39,754 nt of DNA from an uncultured Flavobacteriales bacterium (GTDB lineage Bacteria > Bacteroidota > Bacteroidia > CAIKAF01): the NCBI GenBank assembly GCA_903837495.1, contig CAILUT010000017.1, positions 1 through 39,754 on the forward strand, given 5' to 3'. Position numbers and translations under genes: made by a program. The notes below the pieces were generated by a model. It made no database searches, had not been told where the DNA came from, and saw only the letters and a list, made by a program, of their open reading frames with translations. Positions 1,030-8,170 of the stretch are shown piece by piece (the stretch's first letter is position 1; the number at the start of each line of letters is the position of its first letter).

Positions 1030-2037
1030 ATGCTTGCAGTACGGATTGTTGGAAATGGATTGGCGGCCCATGTGCTGGCCCAAACCTTGCTGGGGCGCAA
1101 TATTGAAGTTGAATTGTTTGCGGCCGACCTGCCCGGTTCGGCTTCAAGGGCCGCTTGGGGCTTGTTAAACCCCGTGCATTTAAAAACGCGCACCTTAACC
1201 TATGGGGCAAATCATTTTGACAAAGCCATGCACTTTTATCGGCGCGCCGAGCAGCAACTGGGGCAGTCCTTTTTAAAACCAGTACGCCTTCGGCATTTTT
1301 ATCGGGACGAGCAAGATGCGAAAATGTGGATGCAGGCATGGCAAGAAAACCTGCACCGCCATGTTGTTTTAAAGGCCAACTGTGTGGAGGTGCTGCAGGC
1401 GGGCAGCCTCTCCATCCCAACCTTTATTGCCGCCTCTGAAAATGCCTTAAAAAAAGCGGGAATGCTTAGGCTGGGATTGGCTGGGGAAGCGGAACTGCTG
1501 GGCAGCCCCAAAGAGCAGTGGGTTGTTTGGGCACAGGGGCATTGGGCGGCACAATCGGGGCTTTTTGGCTGGGTTCCTTTGCGCCCTTCTGCCGGGGTTC
1601 AGGTGGAATGGAAGCAGGAGCCTTCGGCCTTTCAGGCGATTGTGCAGCATCGGGGTTATTTTTACGGTCAGGACCCAGTAAATTCAGAGACACACCGCTT
1701 TGGCAGCACCTACAGTTGGAGCATGGAGGCGGGGTACCAAACAGAGGGCGAGGCAGAGCTGCGGCAAGCAATGGCCGCATTTCCAGAGTTGAAAACAGCA
1801 GAAAATCTGCATTTTCGGATGGGTTATCGGCCTGCCAGCGGCGACCGGAAACCCATATTGGGCCCTCATCCGGCTTTTAGCAACCATTTGTTTTTTAATG
1901 GGTTGGGAAGCAAAGGACTTTTGATGGCTCCCGAGATGGCCGAGTTAACCGCAAATATTTGTGTACATTCGAACCGTGAAATTCCGGCAGAATTGGATAT
2001 TCGACGTTTTTATAAACGCTACAAGTCCAGTACGTAA
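1030..2037 (+). CDS. FAD-dependent oxidoreductase, DAO family
   Basis: The N-terminus carries a Rossmann dinucleotide-binding motif (IVGNGLAAHVLA, residues 6-17). It is followed by the Bacteroidota-type stretch SASRAAWGLLNPVHLK. The C-terminus has the DAO-fold signature GYRPASGDRKPILGPHP and the FAD-contacting NGLGSKGLLMAP. The 335-residue length fits glycine-oxidase/D-amino-acid-oxidase-like flavoproteins; the nearest named relatives include the C-terminal oxidase domain of MnmC. The substrate cannot be read from the sequence. A near-consensus -7 box, TACCTTAG at 1019-1026, ends 3 nt before the ATG, so it may have its own promoter as well as read-through from the gene upstream. Confidence 0.8.
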   Translation: MLAVRIVGNGLAAHVLAQTLLGRNIEVELFAADLPGSASRAAWGLLNPVHLKTRTLTYGANHFDKAMHFYRRAEQQLGQSFLKPVRLRHFYRDEQDAKMWMQAWQENLHRHVVLKANCVEVLQAGSLSIPTFIAASENALKKAGMLRLGLAGEAELLGSPKEQWVVWAQGHWAAQSGLFGWVPLRPSAGVQVEWKQEPSAFQAIVQHRGYFYGQDPVNSETHRFGSTYSWSMEAGYQTEGEAELRQAMAAFPELKTAENLHFRMGYRPASGDRKPILGPHPAFSNHLFFNGLGSKGLLMAPEMAELTANICVHSNREIPAELDIRRFYKRYKSST

Positions 2038-2740
2038 AGGATTCAGCCTGGCTTTTTTATTGTTCCCCTTGTTTTGTGAGGCTCAGCGCACCAAACCCAT
2101 TCATGTATTGATGCTGGGCGATAGCCACATGGTTGGCTATTTTGGGGAACACTTGCAGCGCTACTTGCATCAAAAAGGGGCCTTTCATATTTTGTCTGTG
2201 GCCATTGGCGGAGCGGGGTCGTACACCTTTGCTGCTCCGGTTTTAAAAAACACCTGTTGTGGCTATCGGATTCGCCGCACCTGGGCCGACGACAGCATTG
2301 GCTACAACAGCCCCATACGGGTGGTGAGCGGGGCCTTGCGAGCCAACCACATGGCCATTGGAAATTCCTGGAACAAAAACCTAGATAGTTTGCTCCAATA
2401 TTGGCAGCCCGATCTCATTGTTGTTGAACTGGGCAACAACCGGATCGACAACCACGCTGGTTTGATTCAAAAAATAAGGGCTGTTCGCCCCCACAGCCCA
2501 ATTTATTGGATTGGTCCATTTTTACGGCCGGGATTGGCCCAGCGGGTAGCGGGCATACAAAAAGCATTGAAACAAGACAACAACGCCCTACTCATACCCG
2601 CCTGGGATTTGGCCGGACACGATACGTTAGCGAGCTTTCACATGCCGTCGGCAAAAGCGAGAAAAGCCTCAGAACGCCTGGCAAGTCGAATATGCGACAC
2701 CCTGCATTTTCGGCAAAAAGGCTGGTTTTTTTCGTACTAA
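1961..2740 (+). CDS. Secreted SGNH-type hydrolase/esterase
   Basis: Residues 31-42 form a hydrophobic signal-peptide core (FSLAFLLFPLFCEAQ, cut after EA), so the product is exported. The catalytic block I is GDSH at residues 53-56, with Ser55 as nucleophile. Block III is ELGNNRID (usual GxND) and a block V-like His sits in ASFHMP near the C-terminus. SGNH enzymes hydrolyse acyl or acetyl esters; here the substrate is unknown. No ATG is available: the frame opens at GTG 1961, and GTG 1976 is an equally possible start. Both overlap the end of the preceding oxidoreductase gene by more than 60 bp. The last codons lie inside a tandem duplication (see 2712-2960). Confidence 0.7.
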   Translation: MYIRTVKFRQNWIFDVFINATSPVRKGFSLAFLLFPLFCEAQRTKPIHVLMLGDSHMVGYFGEHLQRYLHQKGAFHILSVAIGGAGSYTFAAPVLKNTCCGYRIRRTWADDSIGYNSPIRVVSGALRANHMAIGNSWNKNLDSLLQYWQPDLIVVELGNNRIDNHAGLIQKIRAVRPHSPIYWIGPFLRPGLAQRVAGIQKALKQDNNALLIPAWDLAGHDTLASFHMPSAKARKASERLASRICDTLHFRQKGWFFSY

Positions 2741-2960
2741 GCAGGAAAAGAATCAATGGGAATCGGAGCGAACCCAGGGGAACCGCTGCCTTTGGTCGCC
2801 CAGCTGAATTTCAATTTGATGCAGCCCATTGAGCCAGGCAAAAAAAAGACGGGTTTTTTTCGTACTAAGCAGGAAAAGCATCAATGGGAATCGGAGCGAA
2901 CCCAAGGGAACCGCTGCCTTTGGTCGCCCAGCTGAATTTCAATTTGATAGAGTCCATTGG
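2712..2960. repeat. Tandem duplication (about 125 bp x2) of two convergent gene ends
   Basis: Copy 1 is 2712-2836 and copy 2 is 2837-2959. The best-matching part (2724-2820 against 2852-2948, offset 128) differs at only a few positions. GGCAA occurs at 2712, 2837 and 2960, that is at both ends and at the junction. Each copy contains the last codons of the SGNH gene (FFSY, stop) and, on the minus strand, the T9SS tail codons of the serine hydrolase. The functional SGNH end is in copy 1 and the functional hydrolase end is in copy 2. The other tail in each copy is an orphan. Confidence 0.85.
2753..2838 (-). pseudogene. Orphan duplicate of the serine hydrolase's T9SS C-terminal tail
   Basis: On the minus strand this stretch reads AWLNGLHQIEIQLGDQ followed by RQRFPWVRSDSH and a stop at 2753-2755. 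The real hydrolase tail reads ALPNGLYQIEIQLGDQ, then the same 12 residues and stop. The orphan has no start codon and no upstream protein in frame. It is best explained as the leftover of the tandem duplication. Differences are concentrated at its upstream edge (P to W/L and Y to H changes), as expected for decay without selection. Confidence 0.75.
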
Positions 2961-4191
2961 GCAAGGCTCCAGGATTCCATTCCCGTTTAGCTGGGCCTTC
3001 GGACCAAAGGCGCCCCAATGCGTCATAGATTCGCCAAAAACTGGGCTCGCCCTTTCCTTGGTACTGTATGCGATTCTGGCCTGGATTGGGCCAAAGGAGG
3101 GCAGGGGCATTGGCATGCGTCGAAATACCCGAACTGCAAGGCAGGCGGTTGATGTAACGCCAAATATTGTTGGTAAAAACAGGCGTTACATCTCCACTTC
3201 CGCTGTTGGGACTTTCGCCCATGCGGACCCAAACCAAACCCGTGGAAGGAACAACGCTAAGGATTTGTCCGTCTCTTCCTTGAGCCGCAAACATATCGGA
3301 AGGCGCCTCAGGGAACAAAGGACCTGGAATGGCCAGTTGCAGACCTGGAAGCATAAAGGAAGATTGCCCATTTAGCCAAGTTAAGTACCCATAAGAACGG
3401 TTCTGGGCTTGAGACGGGCGGATCATTTGACCAAAAAAGGCGGTGTCAGACAAAACGGGGGTGCCGTTCCAGGTGCCTCGGTTCAACATCAACAATCCAA
3501 ACCTTGCCATGCTGCGTGGAGTACTAAAAAACACATTGTTGAAGCCAATGCCTAAAAACAATCCCGCCATTCCTGTGGCCGGGCGAATGCGGCTTTGAAA
3601 ATAAGAATTGGCATTTTGGCCGGTGGCATAGTACAGCACCGAATCAAGCAGGGTGTACACCGCATTGTGGTAGGCCCAACGGGTTCCAGCATCGCTTAGG
3701 TATTGAAGGCAGGTGTCAACGGTACAGTCTTTGTTGGCTACCCCATCGTCGAGCCCCGCATCCAAGGCAAGCTGATTCCGAACGGTTATTAAACGTTCTT
3801 TTGAGGCAGGGGCCGAGGTCCAGCCTGTTCCAAGGTATTGGCTGCTGCTGTCTGAAAGAGATAAATGCCCCTCTTGTTGCGCAATTCCCAGCAGCATGGC
3901 TGTCAAGGTTTTCCCTGCTGATGCCCAGTACCAAAGGCTGTCTTTGGTAAAATTACCAAAATAAGCCTCCAACACAATTTTACCTTTATCGAGCAACACA
4001 AACCCTTTGCTGTTGTTGGCTCCCAAATAGGCATACAGGCTGTCGATGTTTTCTTGGCACCACCCTAAATCGCTGGGATTTCGGCTGTCCCAGGTGCCGG
4101 TTTGAGGCGGGAAATACACAGATTGGCCTTGAATAGAACCGAAAAAAAATGCGGAAAGAAACAGCAGAGGAACAAGCACGGTTAAACGCAT
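2881..4191 (-). CDS. Secreted serine hydrolase (class C beta-lactamase family) with T9SS type A tail
   Basis: With the start at 4191 (MRLTVLVPLLF...) the protein has 436 residues and a clear signal peptide ending near IQGQ (residue 23). An upstream in-frame Met at 4224 would add 11 residues in front of the signal and is less likely. The SxxK motif is S91-A-G-K94 and the second motif is Y174-H-N176, as in PF00144 esterases and DD-peptidases. From about residue 360, WPNPGQNRIQYQG...IYDALGRLW...LPNGLYQIEIQ is a typical T9SS type A C-terminal sorting domain, so the enzyme should be exported across the outer membrane. The substrate is unknown; antibiotic hydrolysis should not be assumed. Its final codons lie in the duplicated segment. 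Confidence 0.85.
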   Translation of the reverse strand: MRLTVLVPLLFLSAFFFGSIQGQSVYFPPQTGTWDSRNPSDLGWCQENIDSLYAYLGANNSKGFVLLDKGKIVLEAYFGNFTKDSLWYWASAGKTLTAMLLGIAQQEGHLSLSDSSSQYLGTGWTSAPASKERLITVRNQLALDAGLDDGVANKDCTVDTCLQYLSDAGTRWAYHNAVYTLLDSVLYYATGQNANSYFQSRIRPATGMAGLFLGIGFNNVFFSTPRSMARFGLLMLNRGTWNGTPVLSDTAFFGQMIRPSQAQNRSYGYLTWLNGQSSFMLPGLQLAIPGPLFPEAPSDMFAAQGRDGQILSVVPSTGLVWVRMGESPNSGSGDVTPVFTNNIWRYINRLPCSSGISTHANAPALLWPNPGQNRIQYQGKGEPSFWRIYDALGRLWSEGPAKREWNPGALPNGLYQIEIQLGDQRQRFPWVRSDSH

Positions 4192-4314
4192 GGCATTGGG
4201 ATTGAACGGTAAATTACAAAACAAATTCCAGCTAAACAGAGGCGGTTTTTTTCAACTTCAGAAAAAATCACCTTGATGAATCTTGGATTTTTGAACGTTA
4301 AATTGAACTGCCGC

Positions 4315-5193: not shown

Positions 5194-5205
5194 GGGTATG
5201 GTTAA

Positions 5206-5666
5206 ATGCGTGAACGGGCTTTACTAAACTCAAAGATAAGGAACGCGGTGGAGTTCTTCGGCCCAAACCAAGAACGGCCTGCCCAGCATACCGCTCAAGC
5301 ATGCAACAAAAGGCCCTGAATGCGTGAACGGGCTTTACTAAACTCAAAAATGAAACAACGCGGCCGAGTTCTTCCGAGCCAAACCAAGAACGGCCTGCCC
5401 AGAATACCGCTCAAGCATGCAACAAAAGGCCCTGAATGCGTGAAAGGGCTTTACTAAACTCAAAAATGAAACAACGCGGTGGAGTTCTTCGGGCCCAAAC
5501 CAAGAACGGCCTGCCCAGAATGCCGCTCAAGCATGCAACAAAATGCCCTGAATGCGTGAACGGGCTTTACTAAACTCAAAAATGAAACACCGCGGCCGAG
5601 TTCTTCCGAGCCAAATCAAGAACGGCCTGCCCAGAATGCCGCTCAAGCATGCAACAAAAGGCCCTG
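5206..5666. repeat. Four tandem 114-116 bp noncoding repeats
   Basis: Units start at 5206, 5320, 5436 and 5552 with ATGCGTGAACGGGCTTTAC (unit 3 has one change) and end with a GCCCTGA-like stretch. Lengths are 114, 116, 116 and about 115 bp; a 116 bp period is not a multiple of three, so a repeated peptide is excluded. Each unit contains the inverted repeat GTTCTT...AAGAAC. Units 1 and 3 share GGTGGAGTTCTTCGG, while units 2 and 4 share GGCCGAGTTCTTCCGAG, an A-B-A-B pattern. The array fills most of the 553 bp gap between genes; 5667-5746 is AT-rich leader for the next gene. Confidence 0.9.
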
Positions 5667-5746: not shown

Positions 5747-8170
5747 ATGTACTCAAGGATTTCAAACTTCGCTATGGTGGCACTTTTAACGGTGCTAAGT
5801 TTGGCCTTGCGGGCGCAGCAAGTTGTAACTGCAGGCCCCGATACCAGTGTTTGCACCGGCCAAACTGTTACCCTTACCGCGGTTGTGGCCGGCAGCGGCC
5901 CCGGCAACTCAGGTACGGTTTCTTTGTCGGACGACCAATACAGTGGGGTTGTTCCCATTGGATTTACCTTCAACTATTTTGGCATCAATTACACCAATTG
6001 CATCATTAGTTCCAACGGCTATGTTTCGTTTAACATAGGAAACGCCAATGGATATTCCGCTTGGAGCATCAACAATCCTATCCCCGGCCCAGGAACTCCC
6101 CTAAATTCCATTATGGCCCCTTGGCAAGACATCAATCCCAGCGTTTGGACCTCGCCAAACGGGGTAATCAGCTACAAAACCGTAGGTACAGCCCCCAACC
6201 GGATTTTTATTGTAGAGTTTAGAGACATTAATATGTTCAGCTGCACCAACGTTTGTTACGGAGGCCAAATTCAGTTGTTCGAAACCAGCAACATTATCGA
6301 AACACACATTGCCAGCAAACAGCTTTGCAATACCTGGAACAACGGCCGGGCCATCCATGGCATCCAAAACGCAACCGGAACCATTGCCGTGGCAGTTCCC
6401 GGGCGAAACTTTCCCAACCAATGGGCAACTGTAGCCGACGGTCGCCGCTTTACCCCCGCAGGAAACACCTACACCCTTTCTACCGTTCCCTTTGCCCCCA
6501 TCTTTATTGCCACCAACATTCCAGCCATTCAATGGACTACCATGGGCGGACAGCTTTTGGGCACCGGAAACACCCTTACGGTTACGCCTTCAACCACCAC
6601 TTCGTATTTGGCCAAATTGCCCTACTCCAGCTGCGGCACCTCCTTTTTCCAAGACACCGTAACGGTTACGGTTGGCCCTATGCCTGTAACCACCAGCCCC
6701 GACACCGCCATTTGCATTGGCGACACCGCTCAAATTTGGGCCCTAGGAACCACCGGCCAAAACATCACCTATGCTTGGTCGCCCGGAGCCACCCTCAGCG
6801 GTACAAGCATCCCCAACCCCCTAGCCTTCCCCACCCAAACTACGGCGTACTCCGTTACCGTTAGCAGTACCTTGTGTACAGCAACCCGAACCATCAACGT
6901 AACGGTAAATCCCCTGCCAAATGTAAACATCGCACCTGCAGCTCCTTCGATTTGCCCCGAAGCCGATGTGCAACTTACCGCCTCGGGTGCAAGCACCTAC
7001 CAATGGAGCCCCCCAACAGGCTTGAGCGCAACCAACATTGCAAACCCAATTGCCGACCCCGCCGTTACCAGCCAGTATGTGGTAACCGGCACAAACGCAA
7101 ACGGCTGCGTAAATACCGATACGGTTTTGGTTACCGTTTTCCCCGCAGCTCAAGTCGATATTAGCCCCTTGGCGCCTTCCATTTGTTTGCAAGACTCTAT
7201 CATCTTAACCGCCAGCGGAGCAGCAAGTTACCTCTGGAACCCCGCCGGAATGAACGGCCTAAATACCGGTGCAGGTTTGCAGGTTTCTCCAACACAAACA
7301 ACCACCTACCGTGCCATTGGAACCGATGCCAACGGCTGCGTTGACTCGGCCGACGTTACCCTTATTGTTTTTGCCCTGCCAACAGCAAATTTCTCGGTGG
7401 TCCCCCCCGAAGCGTGCATTCCCGCAAACTTAACCTTCACCGATTTGTCGCAAGGCAACGGAGGCATCATCAACAGCTGGGAATGGTTTATTGATTCCAA
7501 AGGCGGCTTTACCCAACAAAATCCAGCCATTGTTTTTACTGCCCCCGGAGTTTATGGAGCTTTCCTTAAGGTTACAACCTCCGATGGCTGCGTTGACAGC
7601 GTCCGTATTGATAGCGCAGCCTTTGCCCGCCCCTTGCCGATTGCCGACTTTTCGCATACGCCCGAAAAAACAAACATTGGAAATCCCATTTTCTTTTTCA
7701 CCGACCAATCAAGCCCCGATGTGGTTGCTTGGAATTGGACCTTCAACGGGCAGGGCGGCGTAGGAGCCTCAGACCCCAGCTGGACCTTCCCCGACGTGGG
7801 CGAATACTCCGTACAATTAACGGTTACCAATCAATACGGATGTACCGACAGCACAGGAACCATGGTTGAAGTAGAAGGCATTTCCGAACTCTGGATCCCA
7901 AGCGCCTTTACCCCCGACGGCGACGGATTGAACGAAACCTGGTTCCCCAAAGGAACAAACCTGACCGACAACGTCAACCTGCTGGTGCTGGTGTACGACC
8001 GCTGGGGCAACAAAGTGTACGAAGGAGGCAGCCCCGACAAACCCTGGACAGGCAATCAACCCGACGGGCAAACCGTTTGCCTTCCTGGAAGCTACTCCTA
8101 CCGAATTATGTTCCTGAACGAAATGAAAAAATACCATGAATTCATGGGCAAAGTTGTTTTAATCCGTTAA
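5747..8170 (+). CDS. T9SS type B surface protein with Ig-like and PKD repeats
   Basis: The ATG at 5747 gives 807 residues; a TTG three codons upstream is less likely. Residues 1-22 are a signal peptide ending LALRAQ. An N-terminal domain (about 30-230) contains GFTFNYFGINYTN and IMAPWQDINPS, resembling secreted adhesion-type beta domains. Several Ig-like repeats follow, two of which are near copies (SGASTYQWSPPTGLS and SGAASYLWNPAGMNG). Next come two PKD-type domains (WEWFIDSKG, WNWTFNGQG). The last 95 residues are a CHU_C gliding-motility/T9SS type B domain (FTPDGDGLNETW, VYDRWGNKVYEG, GSYSYRIMF). Such proteins are exported and act in adhesion or gliding. A weak -7-like TATATTTA lies at 5718-5725. 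Confidence 0.88.
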   Translation: MYSRISNFAMVALLTVLSLALRAQQVVTAGPDTSVCTGQTVTLTAVVAGSGPGNSGTVSLSDDQYSGVVPIGFTFNYFGINYTNCIISSNGYVSFNIGNANGYSAWSINNPIPGPGTPLNSIMAPWQDINPSVWTSPNGVISYKTVGTAPNRIFIVEFRDINMFSCTNVCYGGQIQLFETSNIIETHIASKQLCNTWNNGRAIHGIQNATGTIAVAVPGRNFPNQWATVADGRRFTPAGNTYTLSTVPFAPIFIATNIPAIQWTTMGGQLLGTGNTLTVTPSTTTSYLAKLPYSSCGTSFFQDTVTVTVGPMPVTTSPDTAICIGDTAQIWALGTTGQNITYAWSPGATLSGTSIPNPLAFPTQTTAYSVTVSSTLCTATRTINVTVNPLPNVNIAPAAPSICPEADVQLTASGASTYQWSPPTGLSATNIANPIADPAVTSQYVVTGTNANGCVNTDTVLVTVFPAAQVDISPLAPSICLQDSIILTASGAASYLWNPAGMNGLNTGAGLQVSPTQTTTYRAIGTDANGCVDSADVTLIVFALPTANFSVVPPEACIPANLTFTDLSQGNGGIINSWEWFIDSKGGFTQQNPAIVFTAPGVYGAFLKVTTSDGCVDSVRIDSAAFARPLPIADFSHTPEKTNIGNPIFFFTDQSSPDVVAWNWTFNGQGGVGASDPSWTFPDVGEYSVQLTVTNQYGCTDSTGTMVEVEGISELWIPSAFTPDGDGLNETWFPKGTNLTDNVNLLVLVYDRWGNKVYEGGSPDKPWTGNQPDGQTVCLPGSYSYRIMFLNEMKKYHEFMGKVVLIR

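Follow-up and report, generated by a model that had tools for sequence, protein, structure and literature searches.

In an uncultured Flavobacteriales bacterium, two convergent genes have had their facing 3′ ends duplicated in tandem. In the window, by which we mean the whole 39,754-nucleotide stretch that was analysed (contig CAILUT010000017.1 of assembly GCA_903837495.1), positions 2715–2967 consist of two head-to-tail direct copies of a 128-bp unit, adjacent to each other as in a simple tandem duplication. This arrangement had been proposed in an initial annotation, and the comparison of the copies bears it out. In our judgement it very probably goes back to one small, neutral tandem duplication by slippage or template switching, with the orphaned gene ends decaying since.

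Results

The copies 2715–2839 and 2843–2967 are 93% identical over 125 nt, with 9 differing positions in this best alignment, and TRF reported a period of 128, 2.0 copies and a score of 443. The middle of the unit (2724–2820) differs at 2 of 97 positions, in keeping with the nearly identical core described earlier. The divergence also bears on a trivial explanation, namely that the cell has a single copy which the assembler wrote out twice. With 67 contigs, and with repeats at some contig edges, the assembly would suit such an error. However, a falsely duplicated sequence is normally identical, whereas these copies differ at 12 of the 128 positions of the full unit, and we regard an artefact as highly improbable.

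The plus-strand gene was named SGNH-like because of a weak DUF459 match, below the family cut-off, together with what we read as a GDSH motif in its protein. Against the NCBIfam profiles it gave no match, and its start is ambiguous, the mechanically called ORF start overlapping an upstream oxidoreductase ORF. The minus-strand gene encodes a serine hydrolase (PF00144, E 1.4e-21) whose tail matched TIGR04183 over residues 378–438 of 447, with a borderline 23.8 bits above the cut-off of 23 and with 27.3 bits in a genome-wide profile search. That search gave 80 matches at E ≤ 0.01, 72 of them over the cut-off, and a PorV-family protein is present in the genome (379 bits). Judged by a profile score over the curated cut-off in a genome with T9SS parts, the hydrolase would carry a type A T9SS sorting domain.

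The unit contains the ends of both genes, the outer pieces being the genes' own and the inner pieces orphans (Table 1). The SGNH stop (2738–2740) lies in copy 1 and the hydrolase stop (2881–2883) in copy 2, with an orphan twin of the latter at 2753–2755; each gene ends in the outer copy and leaves the other unused, just as had been read initially. Within one copy the stops are 12 nt apart, whereas the true stops are now separated by 140 nt.

Table 1. Features of the duplicated locus (window positions)
Feature	Position	Strand	Basis and remarks
SGNH-like protein	1961..2740	+	ORF; DUF459 E 0.00087; relatives in genus; 3′ end in copy 1
Copy 1 of 128-bp tandem unit	2715..2842		Sequence comparison, TRF
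Orphan hydrolase C-terminus, 26 residues + stop, motif decayed	2753..2833	-	Residues 422–447, 92%; open frame 61 aa
Junction of copies: GGC, A8 (A5 at left border), GACGGG, T7	2837..2860		Read from sequence
Copy 2 of tandem unit	2843..2970		Sequence comparison, TRF; good match to 2967
Orphan SGNH 3′ end (DGFFSY + stop)	2843..2868	+	Read from sequence
Serine hydrolase, Pfam beta-lactamase family, type A T9SS tail (predicted)	2881..4224	-	PF00144, TIGR04183; 3′ end in copy 2

The SGNH protein was found in 16 of the 60 genomes searched, the window's own (G000) included, and among them in all five congeners compared (G001–G005). In G002 and G003 the same convergent SGNH/hydrolase pair is present, and its stops are 33 and 41 nt apart, spacings that leave no room for a second unit. 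The single-copy form that the initial annotation had expected in close relatives is thus present in these two genomes, so that two copies are the derived state, and the ancestor, as predicted from G002 and G003, had a single unit. G001 and G004, which have the pair split over different contigs, are uninformative on spacing. In G005, the nearest congener (76% protein identity in SGNH), a fragment of the hydrolase 3′ end (RFPWVRSEAK plus a stop; L054 1305–1337, contig C45) lies 10 nt beyond the SGNH stop, and the similarity breaks off within the unit that the window has twice. For this reason G005 supports closely spaced stops, in line with the original distance of about 12 bp put forward earlier, but not a copy number. 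From this fragment the contig continues for about 500 bp, in which we found nothing similar to the window; the sequence there holds repeats, including four of ATTCGTGCATTCGTGGC, and a search for the hydrolase elsewhere in the G005 assembly gave no match at E ≤ 0.001. The G005 fragment could be the true end of a gene. If G005 shared the duplication, it could instead be an orphan, and this leaves room for an event older than the split between G000 and G005. The ATTCGTGCATTCGTGGC sequence, with longer surrounding repeats, also occurs at L106, L125, L132, L097, L109 and L133 of G000, often in arrays of 87–131 bp and several times at contig ends, where it may limit assembly.

With the spacing of the stops so enlarged, the extra copy might be regulatory, acting as a doubled bidirectional terminator or as a spacer between the convergent transcripts. 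The A8...T7 arrangement at the junction would fit this idea, as would the T7 at the SGNH end, which is the site of the one terminator-like match of the scan (2710–2725). That single site nevertheless compares with 1.2 expected in shuffled sequences, the RNA fold z-scores of the two strands were −0.50 and 0.41, and the window had no Rfam match at gathering score; none of these three approaches gave anything above chance. G002 and G003, moreover, do without such an extra unit, and we consider a regulatory role most unlikely.

To return to the duplication itself, the in-register homology at its borders, read by eye, is GGC: on the left GGC is followed by AAAAAGGCTGG, on the right AAGGC by TCC, and at the junction CAGGC by AAAAAAAAGACGGG. 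This suggests that the original unit was 125 bp long and that three extra A may have been gained at the junction. The initial annotation had described a unit of roughly 125 bp with GGCAA at each border. GGCAA is present at 2712, 2837 and 2960, but with spacings of 125 and 123 nt against a repeat register of 128, which puts these sites 3–5 nt out of register (by eye) and makes them fit only if small indels are allowed. Few-bp microhomology has been reported at rearrangement junctions in Escherichia coli, mostly for far larger events, in the portion of the literature report that concerns us (PMC3161906). Measured against that portion, the duplicated locus resembles bacterial microhomology-associated tandem duplications in its direct tandem copy, the few bp apparently shared at the border and the slightly altered junction; unlike most of the events described there, its unit is far smaller (about 125 bp), and it is a diverged fossil rather than an experimental event.

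The differences between the copies are unevenly placed. The last 20 nt of the 125 hold 5 of the 9 mismatches (randomisation p about 0.005), and over 128 nt there are 8 mismatches in the last 22 positions versus 4 in the other 106 (Fisher p 7e-5), both intervals having been chosen after looking; the longest stretch free of mismatches, at 43 nt, is nothing out of the ordinary (p about 0.19). Such crowding at the right edge is not predicted by even drift after one event, and homogenisation at the locus, or a junction of complex structure, may have played a part. If G005 is taken as a guide to the older state (by eye), the changes would be those at 2721 and 2777 in copy 1 and at 2723 in copy 2; the relatives suggest a further change in copy 1, at 2821. 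As regards age, the copies differ at 9/125 positions and the SGNH genes of G000 and G005 at 169 of 679 aligned nt. As the copies are the closer pair, either the duplication came after the split or the copies were homogenised. Of the two readings offered initially, a recent event or conversion, the first does not hold on the scale of strains, given a copy divergence of 7–9%, and the second, gene conversion between the copies, is possible.

The orphan minus-strand tail matches residues 422–447 of the hydrolase at 92%. It had been said to read 20-plus residues of the T9SS C-terminus; there are indeed 26, but compared with the TIGR04183 match they represent the end of the sorting domain only. The orphan reads WLNGLH where the hydrolase reads LPNGLY, has lost at position 2821 a tyrosine kept in 9/9 aligned relatives, and is out of frame with the hydrolase because 128 is not a multiple of 3. 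It is absent from the 80 TIGR04183 matches of the genome (E ≤ 0.01), a 26-residue piece being perhaps too short to score, and it does not combine a profile match with an intact PxGxY-type motif, as a sorting domain would. According to a review (PMC5445135), such tails are most conserved at PxGxYVV and KxxxK, within their final 22 residues, and in Porphyromonas gingivalis these 22 residues were sufficient for secretion. Holding the last 26, the orphan possibly once spanned a sufficient signal whose motif is now altered.

By the same token, the unit could be a donor of T9SS sorting tails that spread to new genes, as the initial annotation had speculated. Besides the altered motif and the different frame, the results of several searches stand against this. 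A genome-wide DNA search with positions 2700–2980 gave one match at E ≤ 0.001, namely its own place, and the unit accordingly lacks the further genome copies of a dispersed repeat or mobile element. Furthermore, among 31 tails compared as DNA (those of the 30 best TIGR04183 loci of the 80 matches plus the window's, the other 49 being left out) there was no near-identical pair; the closest reached 77.5% over 89 nt and belongs to proteins with open frames of similar length (1248 and 1261 aa). We hold the donor role to be extremely improbable, and nothing found here seems to point to any use of the orphan tail. When the query was widened to 601 bp and the limit relaxed to E ≤ 1, four further matches of 24–30 nt appeared in the own genome (E 0.016 to 0.7), which we take as chance. 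Across six genomes of the genus, the own one included, the same query returned the place itself and short flank matches in G002, G003 and G005; G005 also matched the hydrolase end over 23 nt, and the remaining weak matches, among them the four of the own genome, measured 17 to about 50 nt.

We also surveyed tandem arrays and copied gene ends more widely. Arrays with a period of 40 or more numbered 14 in 715,729 sampled bases of G000 (41 stretches, window included; 1.96 per 100 kb) and 6 in 346,283 bases of G002 (20 stretches; 1.73 per 100 kb), rates that are rough and maybe high, since some arrays adjoin and the stretches are a non-random sample, many beginning at contig ends, where repeats are perhaps enriched, and others having been chosen around T9SS tails. 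A downstream copy of the gene's 3′ end was found for 2 of 556 ORFs in the G000 sample, the window hydrolase and an ECF sigma factor at L115, in a test that uses the last 50 nt of mechanically called ORFs (at least 100 aa, filtered for overlap) and is blind to the SGNH end, of which 26 nt are inside the unit. The control, gene starts copied upstream, gave 1 of 536 (L115 337–834, 78%). The corresponding figures for G002 were 2/282 and 0/273. Both G002 cases are at L154 (contig C18; 8030–8416 and 15197–15571), where the last 50 nt of the ORFs recur 368 nt on, at 90% and 88%, and may reflect tandem paralogues. As the end of the ECF sigma factor gene has been copied as well, 3′-end copying is not tied to sorting tails. 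At L115 (9860–10120, contig C20 of G000), three copies of about 86 bp take in the end of the sigma factor gene plus the beginning of its downstream neighbour (MRQPIDQRF), a gene start that therefore occurs three times. Like the window, this array has a tandemly copied gene 3′ end, in units near 86 bp; unlike it, it has three copies, lies between co-directional genes and is without a sorting tail.

Several other repeats were noted in passing. At 5205–5666 of the window a 116-bp unit is repeated four times in tandem (92% matches). This array separates the starts of two divergent genes, a PD-(D/E)XK nuclease-family gene on the minus strand and, on the plus strand, a gene for a CHU_C / type B T9SS domain protein, whose domain scored over the Pfam cut-off and just under that of NCBIfam. 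L134 (3979–4204, contig C64 of G000) has a 53-bp array of four copies between convergent ORFs, one of which encodes a subtilase whose match to a T9SS tail is weak and falls below the Pfam cut-off. At L135 (12707–12841, contig C66 of G000) a 68-bp unit is present twice, parts of which match many places of the sampled genome on both strands. Finally, a palindromic unit of about 35 bp (AGACGCAACATTTTGCGTCT and variants) forms arrays in L117 (1096–1256) and L110 (near 7524–7751), and L132 and L135 have stretches related to it.

Discussion

The sequence is best explained by a short series of events. Slippage during replication, or a template switch, at a short microhomology (GGC, perhaps GGCAA) would have produced a tandem duplication of about 125 bp that copied the facing 3′ ends of the two convergent genes. 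Both genes would have kept intact ends, each reading its outer copy only, and for this reason we infer that the duplication was close to neutral and free to drift. The inner ends, being without use, would since have been decaying, as the WLNGLH of the orphan tail illustrates. Both the mechanism and the neutrality are inferred.

A broader reading would make convergent gene ends in this genus a hotspot of breakpoints, with copies kept alike by conversion and with spare 3′ ends persisting as raw material for new C-termini, in which case G005 would represent a second event at the same place. We think this very unlikely. The broken hydrolase end of G005 suggests that orphan ends of sorting tails can also arise via gene loss.

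For annotators, the orphan fragment in the window is not to be taken as a gene or as a sorting signal. The duplication has little significance beyond its locus and looks like ordinary genome wear; it illustrates neatly that a small duplication placed between two convergent genes can spare both of them and yield decaying 3′ fragments.
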